A stretch of 43,438 nt of DNA, taken from contig JAFWGA010000023.1 in the NCBI GenBank assembly GCA_017515325.1, forward strand, positions 1-43,438, given 5' to 3'. Under the pieces are notes generated by a model. It was not told the origin of the DNA. It did no database searches and saw nothing but the letters and a program-made list of their open reading frames with translations. Source of the stretch: Blautia sp. (GTDB lineage: Bacteria > Bacillota > Clostridia > Lachnospirales > Lachnospiraceae). Shown here one piece after another: positions 26,915-43,293 of this stretch. The position numbers were made by a program, and so were the translations under genes. Position 1 is the first letter of the stretch. Every line of letters begins with the position of its first letter.

Positions 26915-29068
26915 ATGAAAAAAATACTGGGATTTACGGTAGGAGGTCTGCAGCACAAGACCTGGCATCTTATACTGGTCATGCTGTTGCTGGTGATTGC
27001 CTCGTTTGCAGGAATCTCTGTCTATCATAACAAAATGCTGGTTCAGGTCGTGGAAAAGGCCAGAAAAGACCAGCAGGAATCCATTTCCCAGACATCAGAG
27101 AGATCCATGCATCAGCAGCTGGAAAATTCCCTGGTCAACACCACAGCCTTACAGGCGGAAATGGCCGACAATGATTTTTCGGAAGTCATCAATGACATCT
27201 GCATCATGCAGACAATGGCGCAGGGGCTGTTTGAAAACCAGGATCTCATAGAACCGGGCACAGTCAACCCCCCCGATCCTTCCCTGGACGGAACGCCCAC
27301 CGTCCATGTTTTGTTTGAAGAGGGAGTCGACTATACCAAATCCGAATACCTGGGAATTGTCGCCCATATGGGAGAACTGCTGCTGGCTTTGGACCGCAAT
27401 TCCACCAAGATTGCCAGCTGCTATGTCGGACTTGCGGACGGAACACATCTCAGCGTGGATGCACACCTGGCGAACAGGTTCGATGAAAACGGCAGACAGA
27501 TCCCTTATCCTGTACGGGACCGGCCATGGTACAAAGGCGCGGTCGAGACCAGGGGGCTGTTTTTTACCGGGATAGAAAAGGATGCCTTCAGCGGGGAAAT
27601 CGGGATCACCTGCTCCGCGCCTGTTTTCTATCAAGGGGAGATTGTCGCGGTGGTAGGCGCTGACATCAACCTCGACAGCATCAACAATTTCGTCCATACC
27701 TCCAACGAACGCAGCGGTTATTCCTTTGTCATCAACGACCATGGCCAGGTCATCCTGGCCCCGGACGATAATCCGATTTTTGCTGTGGCTACGGCAGATG
27801 AAGCTCCGGATCTGAGGCTGAGCGACAATAAAGAGCTGGCCGCCTTCATCGATAAAGCCCTTGAAGCCAGGACAAGACTGACCGACATTACCATCAATCA
27901 CCGCCGCTTCTATATGGCCGGCGCACCGATGAAAACCATGGGCTGGGCTGTCATAAAGCTGGTTGAAAGGGCAGTTACAGAAGAGCCGGAACGGCTCCTG
28001 CAGGCCAGGTTTGCCTCCATCAATGCAGATGCCAGCGCTGTTTTTTATCAGGGCACCTCCCGTGTCCGCCTGACGATTTTTCTGATGATTGCAGTCATTA
28101 TGGTGATCGGCACCCTGGCAGCACATTTTGGGGCGGGCAGGATCGTCCGGCCTATAGAGGAGATGACACGAAACATCGTCGAAAGCGGAAAGACCGGCCG
28201 CCCCTTCGAGATGAAGCCCTGCTACAGAACCAATGACGAGATCGAGGTACTGGCTGAATCCTTCGACGACCTGTTTCACAAGATCCAGCAATACATAACG
28301 GATATCACCGCGATCACCCGGGAAAAGGAAAGGATCAGTACAGAGCTGGATCTTGCCCGGAAGATCCAGGCCGACATGATGCCCTATATCTACCCGGCAT
28401 TTCCGGATCGCAACGAATTCGACATTTATGCCACCATGAATCCTGCCAAAGAGGTCGGCGGCGACTTCTATGATTTTTTCCTCATCGATCGGGACCATCT
28501 TGGCATGGTGGTGGCGGATGTTTCCGGTAAGGGCGTGCCTGCTGCCCTCTTCATGATGATGGCCAAAATCCTGATCAATAATTTCGCTATGATGGGCAGC
28601 TCTCCGGCTAAGGTTCTTGAACAGACCAATACCGCGATCTGCCAGAATAATGAACAGGAAATGTTTGTCACGGCATGGGTCGGCATCCTGGATATCCCCA
28701 CAGGTCGGCTCATTGCAGCCAATGCCGGCCACGAATATCCCATCATCAGGAAAGGCAGCCAGGGTTTCAGACTGCTCAAGGACAAACATGGATTTGTACT
28801 AGGCGGTTATGAAGGCATGCCCTACAAGGACTACGAAATCCAGCTGAATCGGGGCGACCTTCTTTTCCTGTATACAGACGGGGTTCCCGAAGCGGCCAAC
28901 GAGAAGGATGAGCTCTTTGGCACAAAGCGCCTGATCGAAACCATGAACCGGTATCAGTCCTGCGGACCCTTTGAGCTGCTGACGGCAGTCAGAAACTCTG
29001 TCAACGATTTTGTCGGAGATGCCGAACCCTTTGACGACCTGACCATGCTAGCTATCACCATGAAATAG
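26915..29068 (+). CDS. Membrane-bound PP2C-type phosphatase (dCache-HAMP-SpoIIE, RsbU/IcfG-like)
   Basis: A 717-residue signalling protein. TM1 (about 17-37) is followed by a large outside sensor domain of dCache type (about 40-380; RPWYKGAVE and GADINLDSI are typical), TM2 (about 384-403), HAMP (about 404-460), a linker with the LDLARKIQADMMP signature (about 475) and a SpoIIE-type PP2C domain (VGGDFYDFF, DVSGKGVPAALFM, YTDGVPEA, DDLTMLAI). The metal-binding Asp residues are all present. Such proteins dephosphorylate anti-sigma-factor antagonists in partner-switching pathways in response to an outside ligand. No partner genes are nearby. GGGAGGAAA precedes the ATG. Confidence 0.92.
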   Translation: MKKILGFTVGGLQHKTWHLILVMLLLVIASFAGISVYHNKMLVQVVEKARKDQQESISQTSERSMHQQLENSLVNTTALQAEMADNDFSEVINDICIMQTMAQGLFENQDLIEPGTVNPPDPSLDGTPTVHVLFEEGVDYTKSEYLGIVAHMGELLLALDRNSTKIASCYVGLADGTHLSVDAHLANRFDENGRQIPYPVRDRPWYKGAVETRGLFFTGIEKDAFSGEIGITCSAPVFYQGEIVAVVGADINLDSINNFVHTSNERSGYSFVINDHGQVILAPDDNPIFAVATADEAPDLRLSDNKELAAFIDKALEARTRLTDITINHRRFYMAGAPMKTMGWAVIKLVERAVTEEPERLLQARFASINADASAVFYQGTSRVRLTIFLMIAVIMVIGTLAAHFGAGRIVRPIEEMTRNIVESGKTGRPFEMKPCYRTNDEIEVLAESFDDLFHKIQQYITDITAITREKERISTELDLARKIQADMMPYIYPAFPDRNEFDIYATMNPAKEVGGDFYDFFLIDRDHLGMVVADVSGKGVPAALFMMMAKILINNFAMMGSSPAKVLEQTNTAICQNNEQEMFVTAWVGILDIPTGRLIAANAGHEYPIIRKGSQGFRLLKDKHGFVLGGYEGMPYKDYEIQLNRGDLLFLYTDGVPEAANEKDELFGTKRLIETMNRYQSCGPFELLTAVRNSVNDFVGDAEPFDDLTMLAITMK

Positions 29069-33031: not shown

Positions 33032-34471
33032 TCACATTTTCAATCCAAAGAGCACCTTCAGATTGTCCATATCCTTCTGCTTATCCTCTTCGGAAAGCTC
33101 TTCATTCGGCACCAGAAGCGGATGGGTGCGATTGACCTTATCCTTCTTCCCTTCCCCTTTTCGCCAGTTGTTCAGATAATGATATCTTGTCCAGCGGATA
33201 TGCTCCAGCTCAGCATACCTTCTCAGCGTTTCCTCTCCCTCCTCCTGAAAGAGGAATTCCGGTGAAATACCTTCCGCGGCCAGCATCATCCTCTGGATAT
33301 CATGGTAATCCGCCGAACTGATATTGGAATAGCGGGTAAAGGCATCCAGCTTTGCCCACTCCTTTTCCGCATTCTCCTGCGTCTCTTCCATGTCCTCTGC
33401 CCCATAGAGTCTGGCATAGTGCAGATTGATTTTTTTCGCGTTGCGCAGGAGATTCTCCCGGATCACATCATCGATCCGCAGCGCCTTTTCCTTCCAGTCA
33501 AAATAATCCAACCGGCCTGAATCCGCAAACAGGGAAAGCGCCTCCTCCTCGCAGGTCATGACATCGATCCTGACAGCCGGCACCGCCCTCAGAATGCCCT
33601 GGATCGTATCCACATTTGTTTCACAGGCGATCACTCTGTCTGCCTGTGAAATGACATCAAGCCTTTCGTACCAGGGTACCCTGTGAAAATATACCGGATC
33701 CGAAATATTCCCCAATTCATGGTAGACGGCCTGGAACTCCTCCGATTGACCAAAGACATGATATTCTATCCTTTGATCCCTTCTGAAAATATTATCCAGC
33801 AAGCCGTAGACCAGAAGATTCTCACCCAGCTCTGAGAAACCCAGAATACAGACCTTAAGAGAAAATCCCTTTTCCCGGCCCAGCTGATAAAGAGAACGTT
33901 CCTTCCAATAAATCCGGGCAGCTGTCTCCTCCGCATTAAACAGGTAAACATTGTCCTGGGCGCACAAGGAAAACAGATTTTTGCTGGACAGATGGACAGG
34001 ACGGTTTCCGATCCGGGATCGGAAGCTGCTGTATTTCTCGATATTCTCATTCTCCTCTCCCGCAAAAATATACCTGTCTGCTTTCACAAAATCCCCTTCT
34101 CCACTGATTCCACGGCGGCCAAGCTGAAGCAAAAGCTTTTCCTTTTCTTCCCCATTCCCATAAACAGCGACCGATCCCCCACCCAGGAAAGCGCCTATAT
34201 TATGAAGCTTCCTTCGCATACTCCGGAACAGAAGCATTATGGAGCTTGCCGTCACCATCGGCGCCATCCAACGGGCAATCTCCTGACAGAGATTGGCCGG
34301 AACATCCTGATTATTCAGCGTATAATAATTCAGCGACATAAAGGCAGAATTTAAAAACGGCTCCTTTTCCAGGACATAATAACCGATGATGCCCAATGCC
34401 ATGGGTAATACAATGAAAACAACATGCAAAAGACCAGCCAAGGTCTTCCCGGCATCTCTTCCCTTCTTCAT
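33032..34471 (-). CDS. Membrane protein with channel-like helices, TrkA-N-like Rossmann domain and RyR domain
   Basis: A 479-residue protein. Two N-terminal helices (about 10-32 and 66-86) flank a pore-loop-like segment (SLNYYTLNNQDVP) that lacks the K+-filter TVGYG. A soluble part follows with two Rossmann-like stretches: GGSVAVYGNG (about 97), and KVCILGFSELGENLLVYGLL (about 205), like TrkA-N nucleotide-binding domains of ion channels. The last 80 residues hold the RyR domain pattern (ELEHIRWTRYHYLNNW, then RTHPLLVPNEEL). RyR domains in bacteria have been proposed as nucleotide-derived ligand sensors. It is likely a ligand-gated membrane effector, but ion passage is unproven. It begins 49 bp after the PP2C gene, with GGAGGGAAG ahead of the ATG. 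The same Rossmann-RyR pair occurs in the 1494-residue kinase. Confidence 0.75.
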   Translation of the reverse strand: MKKGRDAGKTLAGLLHVVFIVLPMALGIIGYYVLEKEPFLNSAFMSLNYYTLNNQDVPANLCQEIARWMAPMVTASSIMLLFRSMRRKLHNIGAFLGGGSVAVYGNGEEKEKLLLQLGRRGISGEGDFVKADRYIFAGEENENIEKYSSFRSRIGNRPVHLSSKNLFSLCAQDNVYLFNAEETAARIYWKERSLYQLGREKGFSLKVCILGFSELGENLLVYGLLDNIFRRDQRIEYHVFGQSEEFQAVYHELGNISDPVYFHRVPWYERLDVISQADRVIACETNVDTIQGILRAVPAVRIDVMTCEEEALSLFADSGRLDYFDWKEKALRIDDVIRENLLRNAKKINLHYARLYGAEDMEETQENAEKEWAKLDAFTRYSNISSADYHDIQRMMLAAEGISPEFLFQEEGEETLRRYAELEHIRWTRYHYLNNWRKGEGKKDKVNRTHPLLVPNEELSEEDKQKDMDNLKVLFGLKM

Positions 34472-34520: not shown

Positions 34521-35237
34521 CTACCAGTGAACTATCATAGCATAACTTGCATCATCTTTCCATATCAGTGATTTCATTCTTTGATTTAACAAGCGGATAT
34601 TTGTATTCATTTCCACATGATTCATATCTGCAGGCCTTCCACTTTCAGCCGGTAAATGCTCTCTCATTCCGTCCGTGCAAAGTATAACGGCTTCCCCTTT
34701 CGCAATACTCTTCTGTTCGATCTTCATCATTTTATATGCCTCTGGTGTTGTAACGAAACGAGGATGGCCAAACAGGGTAAGCGGAGACATCAGGCATTGA
34801 ATCTTCCCCTTTTTGAGCGAATAGATGTTTCCATCTCCAAGATGAATGATCATAGCTTCACAGGTTACCATATCCAGACATACCGCAGAAAGGGTACAGG
34901 CGAAATCTGTTACATCCGGTTTTCCCTCCTTTGCCGTTACCGGTTCAACCTGTGGAAAGCCTTTTGTCTCAATAAAATAGAGGATGTGTTCGGTTAAGAG
35001 ATAGGCTGTTTTTTCTTTTTTATATTGAAACAATCTGCCCCCTTCGAGTCTCACAAAGTCCTGAAACGCCTCACAGGTCAGGGAAGCGCCAAGCGCCCCA
35101 TATAAGCTGGCGGAAACCCCGTCAGCAATAACCGCCAGGCCATAACGCCCCTTTTTCCCTGCATATACGGCATCCTGACAGGGCAAATGATTCCTCAGAT
35201 GATATAATCCCGTTGTCTTATAAGTATAGAATTCCAT
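34521..35237 (-). CDS. PP2C-type Ser/Thr protein phosphatase
   Basis: About 238 residues, the length of a bare PP2C domain. Metal-binding and family motifs are visible: LPCQDAV, VIADGVSAS, DFACTLSAV, HLGDGNIYSL, LCTDGM and DDASYAMIV. It should remove phosphate from Ser or Thr residues in the cytoplasm. ATG 35237 was chosen; a GTG at 35318 opens a longer frame but has no ribosome site and no family similarity. It is divergent from the operon of the 1494-residue kinase and upstream of the RyR membrane protein in one leftward unit, so it most likely reverses phosphorylation made by that kinase. Confidence 0.85.
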   Translation of the reverse strand: MEFYTYKTTGLYHLRNHLPCQDAVYAGKKGRYGLAVIADGVSASLYGALGASLTCEAFQDFVRLEGGRLFQYKKEKTAYLLTEHILYFIETKGFPQVEPVTAKEGKPDVTDFACTLSAVCLDMVTCEAMIIHLGDGNIYSLKKGKIQCLMSPLTLFGHPRFVTTPEAYKMMKIEQKSIAKGEAVILCTDGMREHLPAESGRPADMNHVEMNTNIRLLNQRMKSLIWKDDASYAMIVHW

Positions 35238-35393
35238 GGTGTCTGTGTTCGTTTCCTTTCGTTTATAATTTTCATTTTGTCCTCCATATCTGAAAATGTC
35301 GGTTTTTAGCACCTTCACTCCACAATTATCTTACCCCTGTGAATCATCGAATATAAAGGGGGGGAAATATTTTCCGGATGTCCGCGCAATCTG

Positions 35394-35422
35394 TTGAAGC
35401 TCACTTTCCCTTTAGGTATAAT
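35394..35422 (+). promoter_or_regulatory. Predicted promoter of the unknown protein-kinase operon
   Basis: TTGAAG (35394-35399), a 17-bp spacer and a perfect TATAAT (35417-35422) lie 44 bp before the start codon. The gap of about 230 bp also must hold the leftward promoter of the PP2C gene, which I could not place. Confidence 0.65.
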
Positions 35423-35466
35423 AAGAATAGCATTATCAATGGAACAGGATTCCTGGGAGGTATCAC

Positions 35467-37377
35467 ATGGATATTACATCAAATGCCGTCAGGCTGTTTA
35501 AAGATGAGATGAGCGGGATTAATACCTTCTACTGCAGAGAAGATGTAGAAGATGCCCTCCATGAGCTGAAGGAAGCGACTCCGGATGCAGCGCCCAGCCG
35601 CAGGCAGGAGTTGATCCGGCTATGTACCTGGATTGGAGGACCGTCCGGGGAGCAGATTCTGCAGGATCCTGAACTGATCCGGCAGATCCCTTCCCGCCAG
35701 GAGCAGAACAGACGGCTGTATCAGGCTTTTCATTCTCTGTACGCAAAGCTTCCGACCGCGGTATCATACATGAGACGGATCGTGGACCGCCTGGTTCCCG
35801 GATACTCAAACCTTCCCTTACGCGTTGCCATCCTCAGGCAGTTCATCCGCGGTGCCGGAACTGACTGCAAAACCTTTCCCCTTGTCCAGATTGAAGCACG
35901 GATTCTGAAACAGTTAAGCCCGGAAGAACAGTCCTTCTGTCAGCATCTGTCGGCCGAAGACAGAATCACATTCCTGGCAGACCATGCGGACGATTCTCTT
36001 TTCGAAGCAAAACCAGCCTCTTCCCCTTTGGATGAAGAGGCAATTCAGTCGATCGAAAAGGGCGTCCTGGACAAGCTTGCGTCAAAGAATCTGAGAGACA
36101 AAAAGAATAATCCCGTTTCTTATTCTTCGCTTTGCCAGATATACCAAGACCCGAACAGCAATTTTACAGGCTCACTCCGACAGATCTTTTATCTGACAAG
36201 AAACGGCAGCTGGGCTCCGGCTTATGAGATTTACAAGACAGACATACGGGATGCGCGGCGCAGATCACTGCGTACCACAGGAGCTGATATCCCCGAGATT
36301 CTGACGATCTGCCAAAACCTGGCTGAAGGAAAGTTTCTTACCAATAACGGACGGACAAGGGCATATCTCTATTATTTTGCCATGATGTTCGACATGGACT
36401 TCAACCCGGATAAAGATACAACCGGCAAAACTGTCCCCCAAAAAGACTTTGAAGATGATCTCTTCCATGATTACTACTCAGACCACCTGCTCCGCTTTCT
36501 GCAGACGAGCACGAGTGATCAGGAAAAGGAGCCGACAGGGGAAGGCATCAACTACAAGAACTATGCGGAAATGGTCTATCTGTATTATCTGTATCGAAAA
36601 GATCTTCCCCTTACCCCTGGGCAGAGGATTGACCAGGCGGAGAAGACCATCTCGGATATATTCGGGAAGGCAAAGAAGGATCCGGCCCGTCCCCCCCACA
36701 TGAACCAGTATACCAGCGCATATCGTGACAATGTTATATCCTCTATGCTAAAGCTGCCGGAGTGTGAACTGCCTTCCTATATTCTGAAGAATTTTCAGAT
36801 TATTCCTGACGAGCGCTTTATTGTCCATATCGGTGTCGCTGCCGAGGAAAGACGGGCTCATGCCCTGACCATGGAAATCCTGGAAAAGCTGAAAAGCTAT
36901 TATTTTTATTCTTTTGAGGGGATTGACGACGATCTGATAAAACTGAAAGAAACCTGGGACAATTTTGGGGATAGACTGAAAGAAGAGAAAAACTGGATAC
37001 AGAAAAAAGATGACTCCTTTGCGCAGGCGCTTAAGGCAGCATATCCGGAAGATACGGCGTTTATCAATATCGTTGACAGGCTTGAAAAACGGATTTCCAC
37101 AGCGTTCAGCTGGACGAAAGGGGAGGATATGGGAGATACCGTTCCACGCCGTGTCACGCGCAATCAGTTGGTTTCCGCTTTTGCCCTGATGTACCAGGCA
37201 TCAATCTACGAGATAAACGGGCTTGATACTTTTCCTGACATCTATTTCAATTTCAAGAAGGAAATCGATCCCTATCTGACTGCGTCAAGATTTCAGACTT
37301 TCAGTGAAAAGAACCTGTTAGATCTCTATCTGCTGCTGTCCATCTACCACTATCTGATCTGTAATGGAAAGGAGTAA
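35467..37377 (+). CDS. Unknown 636-residue protein, partner of the kinase
   Basis: I do not recognise this protein. It is soluble, without signal peptide or membrane helix, rich in charged residues and predicted largely helical. Long amphipathic helices are seen at about 470-535 (KLKETWDNFGDRLKEEKN), which may form a coiled coil. There is no visible nucleotide-binding loop or catalytic motif. GGGAGG precedes the ATG. Its TAA is two bases before the ATG of the 1494-residue kinase, and the ribosome site of the kinase (GGAAAGGAG, 37366-37374) lies in its last codons, so the two are translationally coupled. It may be a scaffold, substrate or regulator of the kinase. Confidence 0.8.
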   Translation: MDITSNAVRLFKDEMSGINTFYCREDVEDALHELKEATPDAAPSRRQELIRLCTWIGGPSGEQILQDPELIRQIPSRQEQNRRLYQAFHSLYAKLPTAVSYMRRIVDRLVPGYSNLPLRVAILRQFIRGAGTDCKTFPLVQIEARILKQLSPEEQSFCQHLSAEDRITFLADHADDSLFEAKPASSPLDEEAIQSIEKGVLDKLASKNLRDKKNNPVSYSSLCQIYQDPNSNFTGSLRQIFYLTRNGSWAPAYEIYKTDIRDARRRSLRTTGADIPEILTICQNLAEGKFLTNNGRTRAYLYYFAMMFDMDFNPDKDTTGKTVPQKDFEDDLFHDYYSDHLLRFLQTSTSDQEKEPTGEGINYKNYAEMVYLYYLYRKDLPLTPGQRIDQAEKTISDIFGKAKKDPARPPHMNQYTSAYRDNVISSMLKLPECELPSYILKNFQIIPDERFIVHIGVAAEERRAHALTMEILEKLKSYYFYSFEGIDDDLIKLKETWDNFGDRLKEEKNWIQKKDDSFAQALKAAYPEDTAFINIVDRLEKRISTAFSWTKGEDMGDTVPRRVTRNQLVSAFALMYQASIYEINGLDTFPDIYFNFKKEIDPYLTASRFQTFSEKNLLDLYLLLSIYHYLICNGKE

Positions 37378-37379
37378 AC

Positions 37380-40300
37380 ATGATTACACTGGAAAATGCC
37401 AATGTCGGTTCGGAAGCCGATGAACGCAGATTTCTCCGGAACGGAGATGTCCTGCTTCTTTATTCAGAGGGGGGAGAAGCCATCTCCTATCGCATAGAGA
37501 GTGTCCTGGGCGCCGGTGCTTCAGCGGTATGCTATGCGGCAGTCCGTGAAAGGGATGGAAAGGCAGGGAAACTGAAGGAATTCTATCCCCGCGATATGGA
37601 AGCCGACACCCGGCAGTGGTATTACTCCCTGGAACGAACAACAAAGGGACAGCTCGTCCCCAGAGGAGGGACAATCCGGCAGTTTCACGACCTGTGTGAG
37701 CAGTACCTCGAAAACTACCGGAGGTTCAATCATCTTGTCGCGGAAAATCCACAAAATGAAATCCTGAAGAACTATATCCAGGATTACGAAATCCTCTACG
37801 GAAAAGTCACAGAAGAAAAAAATGCCTGGAACCGGTTTTTCGCCAGATTTCAGCCAGATCCTGAGCCTGTCTCCGACGACGCCACAGTGTATGTCTGGAC
37901 CTCCGGAATAGCGGGAGAAAACTATGACAGCTACCTGAATCAGGTCAGACAGTCCCCTCAGATTAACCCTGACCGCAGGCTGTATGAGATTCTTCAGACC
38001 ATGACCGTCCTTACCGATTCCATCGCTGCGATGCATAGGGCAGGACTTCTTCACCTGGACATCAAGCCCTCCAACTTTCTCGTAGGCTACAACAGCAGCC
38101 ATGACATCGATCCCTCCAGAATTTCCATGTTTGATATCGATTCCATTTACAGGGTTGACGACCCTTTCCCCAAGATTACAGGGACCGAAGGGTACCGGGC
38201 TCCCGAAGTAATGCGGGGAAAAGCTGATAACCGTTCTGATATATACTCCATCGGCGCCCTTCTTTTCAAAGCTGTCGTCATCGATGAGAAGCTCGGGAAG
38301 GAAGGCATATACCAGGATTCCTATTATGAACATATTGATCGGTATCTGCGGAATTCTGTCCTGATAACCGGCAGCACGGCCGGACAGAATCCCGGTCTGG
38401 TGGCCGTTCTGTCCTGGATATTACAGAAATGTCTTGCCCCCGTGCCGAAAAAGCGCTATCAGAACTGTCCCTCCCTGATGGAGGACCTTCGAAAAGCCTT
38501 GTCCTTCTGTACCCTGCCTGTGGTAGGCTCCCAGATTGTCGGGGATAACCAGAAGCTTGCTGTTATTCCAAAGAATGAGCAGGGGATCGTCAGTCCGGTT
38601 CTTGCCATCCAGAAGCTTCTGCACGACCATCCGCTTTACAGCGGACTAAAACCCCAGGAAAAGGCTGTCAATATCCTTGTCCTGGGTTCCGGCACCTATG
38701 GGCAGCATTTCATGGACCTATGCCTGCAGGTGGCGCAGATGCCAGGCTATGTCTGCAATATTTTTTCTGTTTCGGACCAGGCCACCCAATTCCGTAATGA
38801 ATATCTTTCCGCACGACCTGCCATGGAACGCTTTGTGAGCATCGATGGGTCTTTTGCCGATCCTCTGGATGAGGCTTATGGAAGCCTTCATTTCATTTCC
38901 TATTCTGATGCCGCAGGACAGGAGGATGCTGGGGACAGCCGTTTTCTTAAAGGAAATGGCATCAATGAAAATGCCTTCAACGCCAGTCTGGCCGGCAGGA
39001 TCCTTTCCCATCTCCGGACCAGCGGCTATCCTGTCTCTTATATATTTATCGCTTTGGGCTTCGATTCTCTGAACCGCAGTGTGGCAGCGGCATTTTCAAA
39101 GTGGAAAGGCGAGGGAGTGCTTGAAGAGCCTGTGCCGATTGCCTATGTATCTGAGACAGACCAGGAAGCATTGCGTAAAAAGCCTTCGTCTGAAATTGTT
39201 CTTCCCATCATGGAGCCCATCACCTGGGAATCCATCGATCCACAGCTGCTGCAGATGGCCTTTAATACCCACCTGTCCTGGATCAGCTCCCGGAATATTG
39301 ATGTGGAGAAGACCTATCAGGAGTTTCTCCGGTCGCGTTATGACCTGAATGCTTCTGTGGAGTATGCCCTTTCGATTCAGTATAAGCTGTATGGAATCGG
39401 CATCAGGATCCGGTCGGAGGAAAACGAGGAAATGCCAGTCTCCGAGGGCTTCTGCCTGGCAAGGGATTATACGGATGCTGCTCTTTGTTTTGACCGGACT
39501 GTCCTTTCCCGCCGTAAATACAGCCCGGAAGCTCAGAAGACATTCGATGAACTGGTAGCCTTTGAACATCGCCGCTGGGTGGTGAGCATGATTGCGAAGG
39601 GGTGGAATGCACCGCTGGATCAGGCCGGAAACCTGGATCTTAATCGGTGCGTATCTGCAGGAAAGGTGCGGAACGAAGTGGATTTCACCCATCCTTGTAT
39701 GGTTCGCAGCAGGGAAGGAAATCCTTTGAGCGGTGCCGAATATCAGAAAGACAACCATGCCAGATGGGAAGCCGTTCCCATTGACCCCAGTCTGGATGAG
39801 CTTGATCAGATGAGTCTTGGCCTCCATCAGGCCTTTCAGGCGGAAGCGGACCGATACAGAAAACAGGATCCCTTGTATATGGGAGAGATAAAAGCCCTGG
39901 ATGCTTTGATTTCTCCTTACGGAGATCGTGTCCGCCTGGTCTTTAACGAATTTCGGTTCTGTCTGAAAAACATCCTGGAGGAAGTAGAAAGCTACAGCCG
40001 GCAATACCGATATTATGAAGACGAATTAAGCCGTGCTCTCAAGGGATTGCCCATTGAGGACAAGGCAGCGGAAAAGCTCAGACAGATCAGAAGAGAATTT
40101 TTCCCTGTCATTGAGGCAAACCTGTTCCGGAATTACAAAGAGAACGACGTGATTCTTTTGGAGAACACTCCCCTGATTATGACTTACCGGTCAGTCGGTA
40201 TCATGGTTGTCCCTTTTGAGGATGCCCGAACCATAGCCGCGAAAAATGAAGCCGTTTTTTCCAATGTTGCCAGCGCAACGATGCTCAGCCCTTCGAGGAT

Positions 40301-41864
40301 ACTGTATCTGTACCGCTTTACGAATGACAGTGAAATAACCAACCTGATAGAGAAATTATCCCATGTTCTGAACTATCTGGATCGGCGGGAGGTACATTGC
40401 GATATTGCTTTTGTGATAGGAATCCAGGATAGGCTTTGGTCAAAGGTACAGGATCAGCTGGAAGCTGCTTTACATTATCTGGCAGAGACATCCTCGAAGA
40501 ACACATATTCCAGCCTGAAAAAATTCCGTGTCATGTCCTACGCAGATAGCGTGGAGGAGGAAACTGCTTTCGCTAAGCTTCTGGCTGATGCCAAAAAGGA
40601 TGGGCTTGATCTGCTCTTCGACGCAAGCCATGGATTGTTTCCCACCAATCAGGAGAATGAACAATTCTCAGCCGCATTACGGAAAATGAGAATCAACAGT
40701 TTCGGCTTCGATCCAAGGACGAAGAAATTCAGTACCTCCGAAGGATGCAGTTATCTGAAATATGTGAAAAACCATTCCTGTCTTCGGGTCAATGATATCT
40801 TTACCCTTTTGGGATCGAAGGATGGCGCCGCGTCTATCCCGGAATATTTCCAGGACTATGAGCCCCTTTGGAATATTTACTGTGGAAATTATACCGAAGG
40901 GAAACCAGTCTCCGCAAGAGAAGGAATGGAAGCCTGGAATACTCTGGCCAAAACTCTGGCTAAGTATTTTTCCGAAAACGATACCCTGACTACCTTTTCC
41001 GTGGCTGACCGGAACAAATCATCAAATCTTGTCCACCATACCTTCTATCTGCCGGAGATGACCTTTACTACAATGTCCGACATCATCGATGCGCTGAAAA
41101 GGGAGAATATGTGTGAAAAAGACTCCATGGTTGAGCACTATACCAGCCAGGAAATGAAAATTTCCCTCCACATTCGCGAAGGGTTATTGCAGTCGTTTTT
41201 TACCTTGGTTAAGAAAGCGGATAAGCTTTTACCCTACTATGGAATAAAAGTCAAAAAAGAAAAGAACAGCGATATCAGCATCAAGGCTGATTCCCTCTTT
41301 GTTCATGATCTCAGCCTTACGGAAATAAAGAGTTCTTCTGTGCTGCAAAATATACTCTCCATTCTGAAGACTCTGCGAAGCGAATATTATCTGCGGAATC
41401 TGCAGATAGAGCCAAAAAAAGATCCGAATAAGGTCTCCTTCCTCATCTGTTCTCCCAGAATCCGAAAGGTACTGACCCAGGAAGGTATGCTCCTGGAAGT
41501 CTATACCTACTACCAGGCCCTGAAAACCGGCTATTTCGATGACGTAGCCTGCAATTACAGATTCTCATATGGCGACGGCAGGCTCGTAAACGAGCTGGAT
41601 GTCATTCTGACCAAGGGATTCCGGACCATCATCATGGAGTGTAAGGGAAAGACAGAGGTGAATGTAGATACGATATATAAGCTGGACAGCATCGTTTGCC
41701 AGATCGGCATTGCACCGGTCAAGGTACTCGTTACCAAAGACCGCAGCGCAATGAAAGGCGGAACCGCTGAAAGGGGAAAGCTTCTTCAGGTGATAACAGT
41801 CTCAGACGAAGAGATCAGCAAGATAGGAGAAATATTGATCAAAAAGCTTGAGGCAATGGCATAG
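37380..41864 (+). CDS. Multidomain Ser/Thr kinase - Rossmann/RyR - CARF-like - Card1-like nuclease
   Basis: A 1494-residue protein. Residues 1 to about 375 form a Hanks-type kinase: glycine loop GAGASAVCY (44-52), probable Lys66 (LKEFYP), HLDIKPSN with Asp227, Lys229 and Asn232, Asp252 in DID replacing DFG, then GTEGYRAPEV. At about 430-620 is a Rossmann-like domain (VNILVLGSGTYGQHFM), followed by a RyR domain (about 722-800; AFEHRRWVVSMIAKGW, then FTHPCMV). Residues about 930-1150 look CARF-like (ASATMLSPSRILYLYRF, LLFDASHGLFP, LRVNDIFTLLG). Residues about 1350-1494 carry a PD-(D/E)xK nuclease core: Glu1373 (LLEVYTY), Asp1407 (VNELDVIL), Glu1420 and Lys1422 (IIMECKG), as in DUF1887 Card1/Can2 enzymes. 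The role is probably a ligand-controlled effector in defence. The kinase and nuclease calls are firm by motif; CARF is tentative. Confidence 0.8.
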   Translation: MITLENANVGSEADERRFLRNGDVLLLYSEGGEAISYRIESVLGAGASAVCYAAVRERDGKAGKLKEFYPRDMEADTRQWYYSLERTTKGQLVPRGGTIRQFHDLCEQYLENYRRFNHLVAENPQNEILKNYIQDYEILYGKVTEEKNAWNRFFARFQPDPEPVSDDATVYVWTSGIAGENYDSYLNQVRQSPQINPDRRLYEILQTMTVLTDSIAAMHRAGLLHLDIKPSNFLVGYNSSHDIDPSRISMFDIDSIYRVDDPFPKITGTEGYRAPEVMRGKADNRSDIYSIGALLFKAVVIDEKLGKEGIYQDSYYEHIDRYLRNSVLITGSTAGQNPGLVAVLSWILQKCLAPVPKKRYQNCPSLMEDLRKALSFCTLPVVGSQIVGDNQKLAVIPKNEQGIVSPVLAIQKLLHDHPLYSGLKPQEKAVNILVLGSGTYGQHFMDLCLQVAQMPGYVCNIFSVSDQATQFRNEYLSARPAMERFVSIDGSFADPLDEAYGSLHFISYSDAAGQEDAGDSRFLKGNGINENAFNASLAGRILSHLRTSGYPVSYIFIALGFDSLNRSVAAAFSKWKGEGVLEEPVPIAYVSETDQEALRKKPSSEIVLPIMEPITWESIDPQLLQMAFNTHLSWISSRNIDVEKTYQEFLRSRYDLNASVEYALSIQYKLYGIGIRIRSEENEEMPVSEGFCLARDYTDAALCFDRTVLSRRKYSPEAQKTFDELVAFEHRRWVVSMIAKGWNAPLDQAGNLDLNRCVSAGKVRNEVDFTHPCMVRSREGNPLSGAEYQKDNHARWEAVPIDPSLDELDQMSLGLHQAFQAEADRYRKQDPLYMGEIKALDALISPYGDRVRLVFNEFRFCLKNILEEVESYSRQYRYYEDELSRALKGLPIEDKAAEKLRQIRREFFPVIEANLFRNYKENDVILLENTPLIMTYRSVGIMVVPFEDARTIAAKNEAVFSNVASATMLSPSRILYLYRFTNDSEITNLIEKLSHVLNYLDRREVHCDIAFVIGIQDRLWSKVQDQLEAALHYLAETSSKNTYSSLKKFRVMSYADSVEEETAFAKLLADAKKDGLDLLFDASHGLFPTNQENEQFSAALRKMRINSFGFDPRTKKFSTSEGCSYLKYVKNHSCLRVNDIFTLLGSKDGAASIPEYFQDYEPLWNIYCGNYTEGKPVSAREGMEAWNTLAKTLAKYFSENDTLTTFSVADRNKSSNLVHHTFYLPEMTFTTMSDIIDALKRENMCEKDSMVEHYTSQEMKISLHIREGLLQSFFTLVKKADKLLPYYGIKVKKEKNSDISIKADSLFVHDLSLTEIKSSSVLQNILSILKTLRSEYYLRNLQIEPKKDPNKVSFLICSPRIRKVLTQEGMLLEVYTYYQALKTGYFDDVACNYRFSYGDGRLVNELDVILTKGFRTIIMECKGKTEVNVDTIYKLDSIVCQIGIAPVKVLVTKDRSAMKGGTAERGKLLQVITVSDEEISKIGEILIKKLEAMA

Positions 41865-42185: not shown

Positions 42186-43293
42186 ATGTCAATGCCCTGT
42201 TGCGGGCGATTTCATTTCTACCCTCAAACAATCTTCAACATCCTTACTCTTTCAATGTGTCAATGCCCTGTCTCGGGCGATTTCATTTCTACTACGAGCA
42301 ACGTACGGTAAAAGTACAAAATACTTGTGTCAATGCCCTGTCTCGGGCGATTTCATTTCTACCAACCATTTGTTAGCTTCAGCCTGCGAATGCGGGTTGT
42401 GTCAATGCCCTGTCTCGGGCGATTTCATTTCTACGTATTTGTTTCAGGTACAAGAGCAATTTGAAACTTGTGTCAATGCCCTGTCTCGGGCGATTTCATT
42501 TCTACCCGTTAAAATGCTTGGGGGTTGTCCAGTAAACTATTGTGTCAATGCCCTGTCTCGGGCGATTTCATTTCTACGGAAATACTGCGAATGGACATGA
42601 GGTTTATGTTATTGTGTCAATGCCCTGTCTCGGGCGATTTCATTTCTACGGGATATAACGTTTTTAACTATTGAAATACTTTTTATGTGTCAATGCCCTG
42701 TCTCGGGCGATTTCATTTCTACCAGTTTTTCGGAGCTCATCTCTGGGGCGAATGGCTTGTGTCAATGCCCTGTCTCGGGCGATTTCATTTCTACAGGAAA
42801 TCTGCGGTATCCCTGTCACCTCTACCGAATGTGTCAATGCCCTGTCTCGGGCGATTTCATTTCTACAAACTACCGCACTTACCGCACTCCCGTATTGTTC
42901 TGTGTCAATGCCCTGTCTCGGGCGATTTCATTTCTACTGAACTTATGGAAGAAATTTTTTCATAAGTTAATGTGTCAATGCCCTGTCTCGGGCGATTTCA
43001 TTTCTACGGGAACCCTTTAGGATTGATAACCAAATGAGATCTGTGTCAATGCCCTGTCTCGGGCGATTTCATTTCTACTGTGGAGTCAACCATAGCCCTA
43101 GTAGGGTTAGCATGTGTCAATGCCCTGTCTCGGGCGATTTCATTTCTACGGATAAAAAAATGAAAAAAATTGCTTTAATTATTGTGTGTCAATGCCCTGT
43201 CTCGGGCGATTTCATTTCTACATTCCGTTGGCTTTAAAGTATCACCACGAGTTTATTGTGTCAATGCCCTGTCTCGGGCGATTTCATTTCTAC
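42186..43293 (-). CRISPR. CRISPR array, 16 repeats and 15 spacers, probably read leftward
   Basis: The 36-bp repeat starts GTGTCAATGCCC and ends ATTTCATTTCTAC (plus-strand view), with GCCC/GGGC arms able to form a hairpin. Repeats start at 42186, 42257, 42327, 42399, 42470, 42542, 42614, 42687, 42759, 42831, 42902, 42972, 43043, 43114, 43186 and 43258. Fifteen are identical; the first (42186-42221) differs at position 1 and in the loop (TGTTGC for TGTCTC). Spacers are 34-37 bp and all differ. All 15 spacers end in T, so the true unit may be 37 bp. The degenerate copy marks the leader-distal end, and on the minus strand the repeat ends in ATTGACAC, like the ATTGAAAC handle of type I and III crRNAs. 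Both argue for leftward transcription from a leader at 43294-43438. No cas gene is in the window; a type III-like repeat is a guess. Confidence 0.97.

Follow-up and report, generated by a model that had tools for sequence, protein, structure and literature searches.

The window analysed here is a stretch of 43,438 nt from Blautia sp. (Lachnospiraceae; contig JAFWGA010000023.1). Between positions 33032 and 41864 it encodes four proteins, namely a membrane protein with Rossmann and RyR parts (A), a PP2C phosphatase (B), an orphan (C), and a 1494-aa multi-domain protein (D). The features are listed below; genomes are denoted by G and a number.

33032..34471, reverse strand: protein A, a 479-aa membrane protein with a TrkA-like Rossmann part and a C-terminal RyR domain (Pfam RyR, E 1.3e-7; PDB)
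34521..35237, reverse strand: protein B, a PP2C phosphatase (Pfam PP2C_2, E 2.2e-20; ATG start chosen by homology)
35238..35466, no strand: divergent intergenic region of 229 bp (sequence)
35467..37377, forward strand: protein C, a 636-aa orphan (homologues in G466, G336, G239, and G704)
37380..41864, forward strand: protein D, 1494 aa, kinase-Rossmann-RyR-CARF-nuclease (Pfam and profile-profile matches, alignments)
37986..38462, forward strand: kinase catalytic part of D, residues 203-361 (Pfam Pkinase, E 3.4e-16; alignment)
38667..39479, forward strand: TrkA-like Rossmann part of D, approximately residues 430-700 (hhalign, aligned jointly with the RyR part to the A family)
39522..39869, forward strand: RyR-like domain of D, residues 715-830 (hhalign to RyR profiles, 92.8% and 86.3%)
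40227..40829, forward strand: CARF part of D, approximately residues 950-1150 (hhalign to Card1-like CARF)
41481..41846, forward strand: Card1-type PD-(D/E)xK nuclease of D, residues 1368-1489 (Pfam Card1_endonuc, E 3.8e-8)
42186..43293, no strand: CRISPR array of 16 repeats of 36 nt, a neighbour judged to lie outside the system

The genes of A and PP2C are separated by 49 bp and lie on the strand opposite to C and D. The stop codon of C and the start codon of D are two bases apart, and co-transcription of these two genes is therefore very likely. For PP2C, the sequence-only reading of this locus had used a GTG start at 35318 (34521-35318); the relatives point to the ATG at 35237. The same reading had described a PP2C phosphatase with an RyR membrane protein, facing an orphan gene coupled to a multi-domain kinase. 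All of these parts are present and the observation of the gene set is confirmed, the membrane protein being real but situated just outside the interval that had been delimited. It had also recognized no named system with such a composition: the individual parts are of known kinds, and the combination itself was found in no library searched, since PADLOC, Pfam, and NCBIfam hold no counterpart and no model that covers the gene set as a whole. No description of the set was found in the literature searched, and an earlier mention is possible.

Both the kinase and the nuclease ascribed to protein D were recovered by profile search. Residues K66, D227, N232, and D252, which presumably have their usual kinase roles, are invariant in all five long D proteins aligned, and the best PADLOC match of D (PD-T4-6 kinase, E 8.1e-21) covers the kinase part only. 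The central Rossmann-RyR part aligns with the A family over 253 columns (hhalign probability 97.4%, score 87.3); 299 of 300 column-shuffled controls scored 26.3 or lower, and the remaining one, which at 134.5 exceeded the real score but extended over 21 columns, was taken for an end-gap artefact. The RyR-like domain alone scored 34.5, compared with 15.6 for the best of 100 shuffles. Thus, the RyR claim holds for A at the level of Pfam (32.2 bits, PF02026 cut-off 27.4) and for D by profile-profile comparison with shuffled controls, D itself staying below the Pfam cut-off (one of seven members reaches E 0.063). The CARF-like part, which has no Pfam match, is co-linear with the CARF of Card1-like proteins (score 46.6, probability 88.6%; best of 50 column shuffles 21.4), although its loop reads FDASHG in the window instead of LTGGSEL, so that the TGG is not kept. 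The nuclease aligns with Card1-like proteins at 98.8% (hhalign) and with DUF1887 and Can2 chains in PDB (E 2.8e-4 and 3.5e-3, respectively; entries 8bao and 7bdv), and its NELDV...MECKG motifs have a counterpart in every D that reaches this point, the G466 contig stopping earlier. A single-sequence AlphaFold2 model of residues 930-1494 had a mean pLDDT of 34.3.

The RyR residues of both proteins can be compared with those of phage RyR domains, which bind TIR-made cyclic ADP-ribose according to the available part of a May 2026 preprint (PMC13232231). There, the phage protein RyDEP cleaves 2'/3'cADPR via H, W, H, and D residues, which by our count by eye are spaced +3, +25, and +42, and six of eight homologues bind the ligand (PMC13232231). 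Three of these four positions are invariant in all seven D proteins (H730, W733, and H771). The fourth likely corresponds to D806 or D809, also invariant in 7/7; this position was matched by eye, and the profile alignment ends near H771. In the window A protein, the spacing is H, W (+3), H (+26), and D (+43), again counted by eye, and the H..W, H, and D positions are seen by eye in all ten rows of the A family. The module RyR domain thus resembles RyDEP in its H..W and H ligand positions, as far as these are given in the available part of PMC13232231, and differs in being bacterial and fused to effector domains, whereas RyDEP is a phage counter-defence enzyme or sponge. Among PDB entries, A also matches ryanodine-receptor chains, starting from E 2.9e-10 for an RyR1 chimera.

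Protein C is the most variable in length of the C, PP2C, and D proteins (537-1162 aa), with a repeat expansion in the G466 homologue. Window C matches nothing in Pfam, PADLOC, or NCBIfam at E ≤ 1, and in a Pfam scan that took in the window C and its G704 homologue, the latter had no match at 0.1. The PHROGs collection gave nothing convincing (best E of the window protein 0.035), and the best E in a PDB profile search was 0.41. A low-confidence single-sequence AlphaFold2 model (mean pLDDT 37.5) is helical, and C is a candidate sensor or scaffold. The aspartates of PP2C, which we take to be functional, are kept in all six aligned proteins.

Relatives of D were found in six other genomes at 25-40% identity, four in one family, one in the window's own family, and one in a third. 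The genome samples searched overlap. A search with D residues 385-1494 matched 30 of 295 genomes of the order, including five strong relatives besides the window (G321, 40% identity; G466, 36%; G425, 31%; G336, 30%; G239, 27%); the other 24 matches concern the C-terminus of D only, their open frames being roughly 380-440 aa long. The C profile matched three of 391 class genomes, i.e., the window genome, G239, and the newly found G704, whose D is 28% identical. The D-core profile gave two matches in 398 phylum genomes, both already known, and five in a family of 48 genomes, comprising four known modules and G292, which carries no more than a TrkA-RyR gene; in G466 there is also a second matching place, of TrkA type. 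A search for C in 200 family genomes returned the window alone. Neither the D core nor C has a relative in the viral contigs or plasmids searched, and the D core has none in the phages; the plasmids gave one weak RyR-domain match to A. The module is rare and patchy. A contig scan yielded clustered FHA, PP2C, and kinase-like genes (names assigned by eye), which match in the kinase only and were set aside.

Gene order is retained beyond a chance neighbourhood, in agreement with the idea of a conserved multi-gene set: C, PP2C, and D follow each other on one strand in G466, G336, G239, and G704; in G336, C and PP2C are separated by an additional frame of 193 aa. The G425 contig ends beyond PP2C and the G321 contig begins inside D. 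The window arrangement differs in that PP2C is inverted and paired with the RyR-bearing A. The RyR membrane protein, which had been counted as part of the set, belongs to it in the window but is not constant, as four of the five relatives with a visible 3' side (G425, G336, G239, and G704) instead carry after D a stand-alone RyR gene of 93-96 aa; none was found in G321. In all four small proteins, T replaces the second ligand histidine.

The interpretation of the locus as a conflict system is partly supported by its neighbourhoods, since immune-type genes (TIR, TIR-NB-ARC-TPR, and DUF4062) adjoin the module in four of six relatives. A search for TIR_2 (PF13676) in the seven module genomes gave 13 matches in five of them. 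In the three genomes where linkage can be assessed, every one of the nine TIR_2 genes detected is less than 16 kb away from the module: 3/3 in G239 (1.1-7.0 kb), 2/2 in G336 (2.4 and 4.9 kb; each of the two also matches NB-ARC and TPR), and 4/4 in G704 (0.65-15.7 kb). The probability of such proximity by chance is about 1e-6 with each genome counted as one cluster, a figure that ignores the clustering of defence genes, and the co-location may just reflect a shared defence island. In G425 (three genes) and G466 (one gene), the TIR_2 genes are on other contigs, the module contigs of 5.3 and 10.9 kb being too short for linkage. G321 has no TIR_2 match. The one DUF4062 match of this genome is found 5.3 kb from D, and the frames after it match AAA/STAND and beta-propeller models weakly, with scores under the cut-off. 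One glutamate, presumably catalytic, is invariant in 13 aligned TIR domains, an alignment that left out the four TIRs of G425 and G466. The window genome (87.7% complete) has no PF13676, PF08937, or PF13271 match. The source of a signal in this genome is accordingly in doubt: it may be missing, encoded in the missing 12%, or not a TIR.

The association of RyR with TIR is the new lead from this analysis, and it was also observed outside the module. Matches to A occur in 13 of 246 genomes of the order, and the nearest homologues share its TM-Rossmann-RyR layout. Nine of the 15 known TrkA-RyR loci outside the module were opened, and in four of them a Pfam-confirmed TIR gene is located within 2 kb: at about 10 bp in G308, about 100 bp in G272, about 0.9 kb in G292 (two small genes in the gap), and 1.9 kb in G306. 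The G306 gap holds one TrkA-type membrane gene with a weak RyR match (profile 6.9e-5, no Pfam match). The other five loci, all from one genus, are surrounded by housekeeping genes (alr and yebC were recognized by eye), and no TIR was seen in the 19 kb fetched. Hence, single homologues in housekeeping contexts, which had been named as evidence against a dedicated system, do exist for TrkA-RyR, whereas the set C-PP2C-D recurs together. No discussion of bacterial TIR-RyR gene pairs was found in the available part of PMC13232231.

Several known systems share parts with the module. Receptors of Thoeris contain SLOG/STALD or Macro parts, for which D gave no Pfam match (E ≤ 1 in the window; E ≤ 0.1 in G466, G239, and G704). 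The likeness to Thoeris lies in the TIR genes that adjoin the module in G239, G336, and G704 and in the binding of 2'/3'cADPR by a phage RyR domain (available part of PMC13232231); the differences are that the module receptor would be RyR, that the effector is a kinase-nuclease, and that the window genome has no TIR match. As in Card1/Can2 (DUF1887), a CARF precedes a PD-(D/E)xK nuclease, established for D by two separate profile alignments, but in D they are fused behind kinase, Rossmann, and RyR parts, the CARF loop differs, and Cas10 is not seen in most module genomes. PD-T4-6 shares the kinase and is not known to include a PP2C, RyR, or nuclease. The TerY-P triad consists of a kinase, a PP2C, and a vWA protein. 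The module likewise has a kinase and PP2C with a third gene at one locus, but its C has no vWA match (window C, Pfam E ≤ 1; G704 homologue, 0.1) and its kinase carries nuclease and RyR parts. A kinase-PP2C linkage similar to that of the triad is described in the part of PMC7159879 available to us. Known kinase-AAA+-CARF-wHTH fusions (PMC4012209) also join a protein kinase to CARF; they have a Zn ribbon and AAA+ where D has Rossmann-RyR, and a nuclease is not stated in the available part of that paper.

The reading that we tentatively place first, at somewhat less than even confidence, is a self-limiting, abortive-type immune module in which an RyR-gated, phosphorylation-tuned nuclease answers an ADP-ribose-type signal. 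Protein C would detect or relay an infection cue, and the RyR domain of D (in the window, that of A as well) would receive a cyclic ADP-ribose-type signal, TIR-made or otherwise NAD-derived. The kinase of D may phosphorylate D itself, C, or the RyR partner, and PP2C would erase the phosphorylation and thereby set the threshold. Activation would free the Card1-type nuclease to cut phage and host nucleic acid, with A in the window acting at the membrane, and CARF would be kept as a dimerisation or allosteric part of the Card1 unit rather than as a canonical cA4 receptor. The core of this proposal is visible in the sequence: C, PP2C, and D are conserved, and the kinase, phosphatase, and nuclease motifs are kept together with the RyR ligand-type residues. 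We infer the link to a nucleotide signal, its specific form being suggested by the ligand residues in RyR and by the linkage to TIR genes. Against it we count the threonine in the four small RyR proteins, the lack of a TIR match in the window genome and G321, and the five housekeeping TrkA-RyR loci.

The main rival, which we regard as unlikely, is a phospho-switch conflict module that dispenses with the nucleotide signal. Here C would sense the cue directly (e.g., a phage protein), the kinase/PP2C pair would transmit it, the nuclease would execute, and the TIR genes would belong to separate systems of the island. Its strength is that C, PP2C, and D form the constant core wherever the contigs allow a view, that C varies most in length, with a repeat expansion in one homologue, and that two module genomes have no TIR_2 match; it leaves unexplained the invariant ligand-type residues in 7/7 D proteins, the second RyR gene in four of five relatives, and the fact that other TrkA-RyR genes are paired with TIR. 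Non-immune phospho-signalling in stress or housekeeping, similar to the kinase-PP2C-vWA triads, appears improbable. Kinase and PP2C pairs are common in ordinary signalling, and five TrkA-RyR homologues have a housekeeping context; the sparse distribution (C in 1/200 family and 3/391 class genomes, the window in both), the strong divergence, the immune-type neighbours, and the nuclease domain argue against such a role.

More improbable still is an accessory of type III CRISPR, whose nuclease would be switched on, as in Card1/Can2, when the CARF of D binds Cas10-made cyclic oligoadenylate. The homology of the CARF and nuclease to Card1-like proteins would fit, and so would the array, which begins 321 bp after D as the sequence-only reading had reported. 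Its membership in the system was not upheld: no array is present in the fetched flanks of any of the six relatives (5 to 40 kb each), and the window genome has two further cas loci, whose repeats differ, so that we judge the linkage incidental. The array consists of 15 identical 36-nt repeats and one copy with three differences on the D side, which suggests that its old end faces D. Twenty larger frames of the window gave no cas match, eight of them screened only at E ≤ 1e-10. A Cas10 palm scored above the cut-off in G336 and G425 and weakly, below it, in G239; the other five of the seven module genomes, including the 87.7% complete window genome, had no match above the cut-off. The palm model may lack full specificity, as the control also matches in an E. 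coli genome. The loss of the TGG loop likewise speaks against an oligoadenylate receptor.

If the immune reading is true, nucleotide-signal immunity and reversible protein phosphorylation would be joined in one operon, a function would be assigned to bacterial RyR domains, and the module may represent an undescribed way for bacteria to recognize infection and respond by shutting down. The old question of whether ryanodine-receptor domains read cyclic ADP-ribose would also be reduced to a simple binding test on small bacterial proteins. A broader possibility, which we consider doubtful, is that bacterial RyR domains act generally as receptors of TIR-made ADP-ribose signals and gate varied effectors; these would, equally doubtfully, include K+-channel-like membrane proteins and, here, a CARF nuclease tuned by a kinase and a phosphatase. 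In that case, bacterial immunity and animal ryanodine receptors would have in common an ancestral logic of nucleotide-gated channels. The N-terminus of A is hydrophobic and, by comparison with homologues, of a degenerate K+-channel type; channel activity of A is uncertain because the filter is not seen in the window protein. The G306 homologue has kept the TVGYGD filter of K+ channels (Ion_trans_2, E 1.5e-12), and a TIR paired with such a channel-like TrkA-RyR protein would make an immune system out of the two parts of the animal receptor, the channel and the RyR domain.

Outside the kinase module (the 636-aa protein C, PP2C and the multidomain kinase D), TrkA-RyR or K+-channel-RyR genes are adjoined by TIR genes in four genomes, and these four loci are considered candidate small TIR-RyR immune systems, distinct from the module.

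L080, 6771-10082: TIR gene with TrkA-RyR or K+-channel-RyR neighbour
L081, 6010-10442: same pairing
L093, 8151-13757: same pairing
L095, 4400-10366: same pairing

Besides the membrane protein A, the Blautia genome encodes a second RyR protein, an AAA ATPase-RyR protein, whose gene is followed by a metallophosphatase-like gene (identified by eye).

G000:C11:74108-74317 (L001; L094, 6386-9132): AAA ATPase-RyR gene region (Pfam)

An additional phosphatase-type gene in the window, dCache-SpoIIE (26915-29065, 4 kb from A), is of an ordinary kind.

Two further contigs of this genome carry cas1: G000:C19 (L047), in a cluster with a repeat array (spacing ~62 nt) that we take to resemble type I-E, and G000:C66 (L046), where a separate cas1 accompanies a different repeat. 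The window CRISPR repeat is absent from both stretches, and thus cas genes for its array were not found.

Among module relatives, D of G321 is interrupted by a single in-frame TAG (L035, near 1863). JAB/Mov34-like and FtsZ-like frames (L061, 6081-6512; L062, 2215-3000), recognized by eye, lie near the G704 and G239 modules. A model of a ~60-aa unit, built from five of its six copies in the G466 C homologue, had no match in the four other C proteins; within the G466 protein the unit was matched six times, each with iE of 7e-13 or better.

L036, 2527-6015: G466 C homologue, repeat units at residues 174-653
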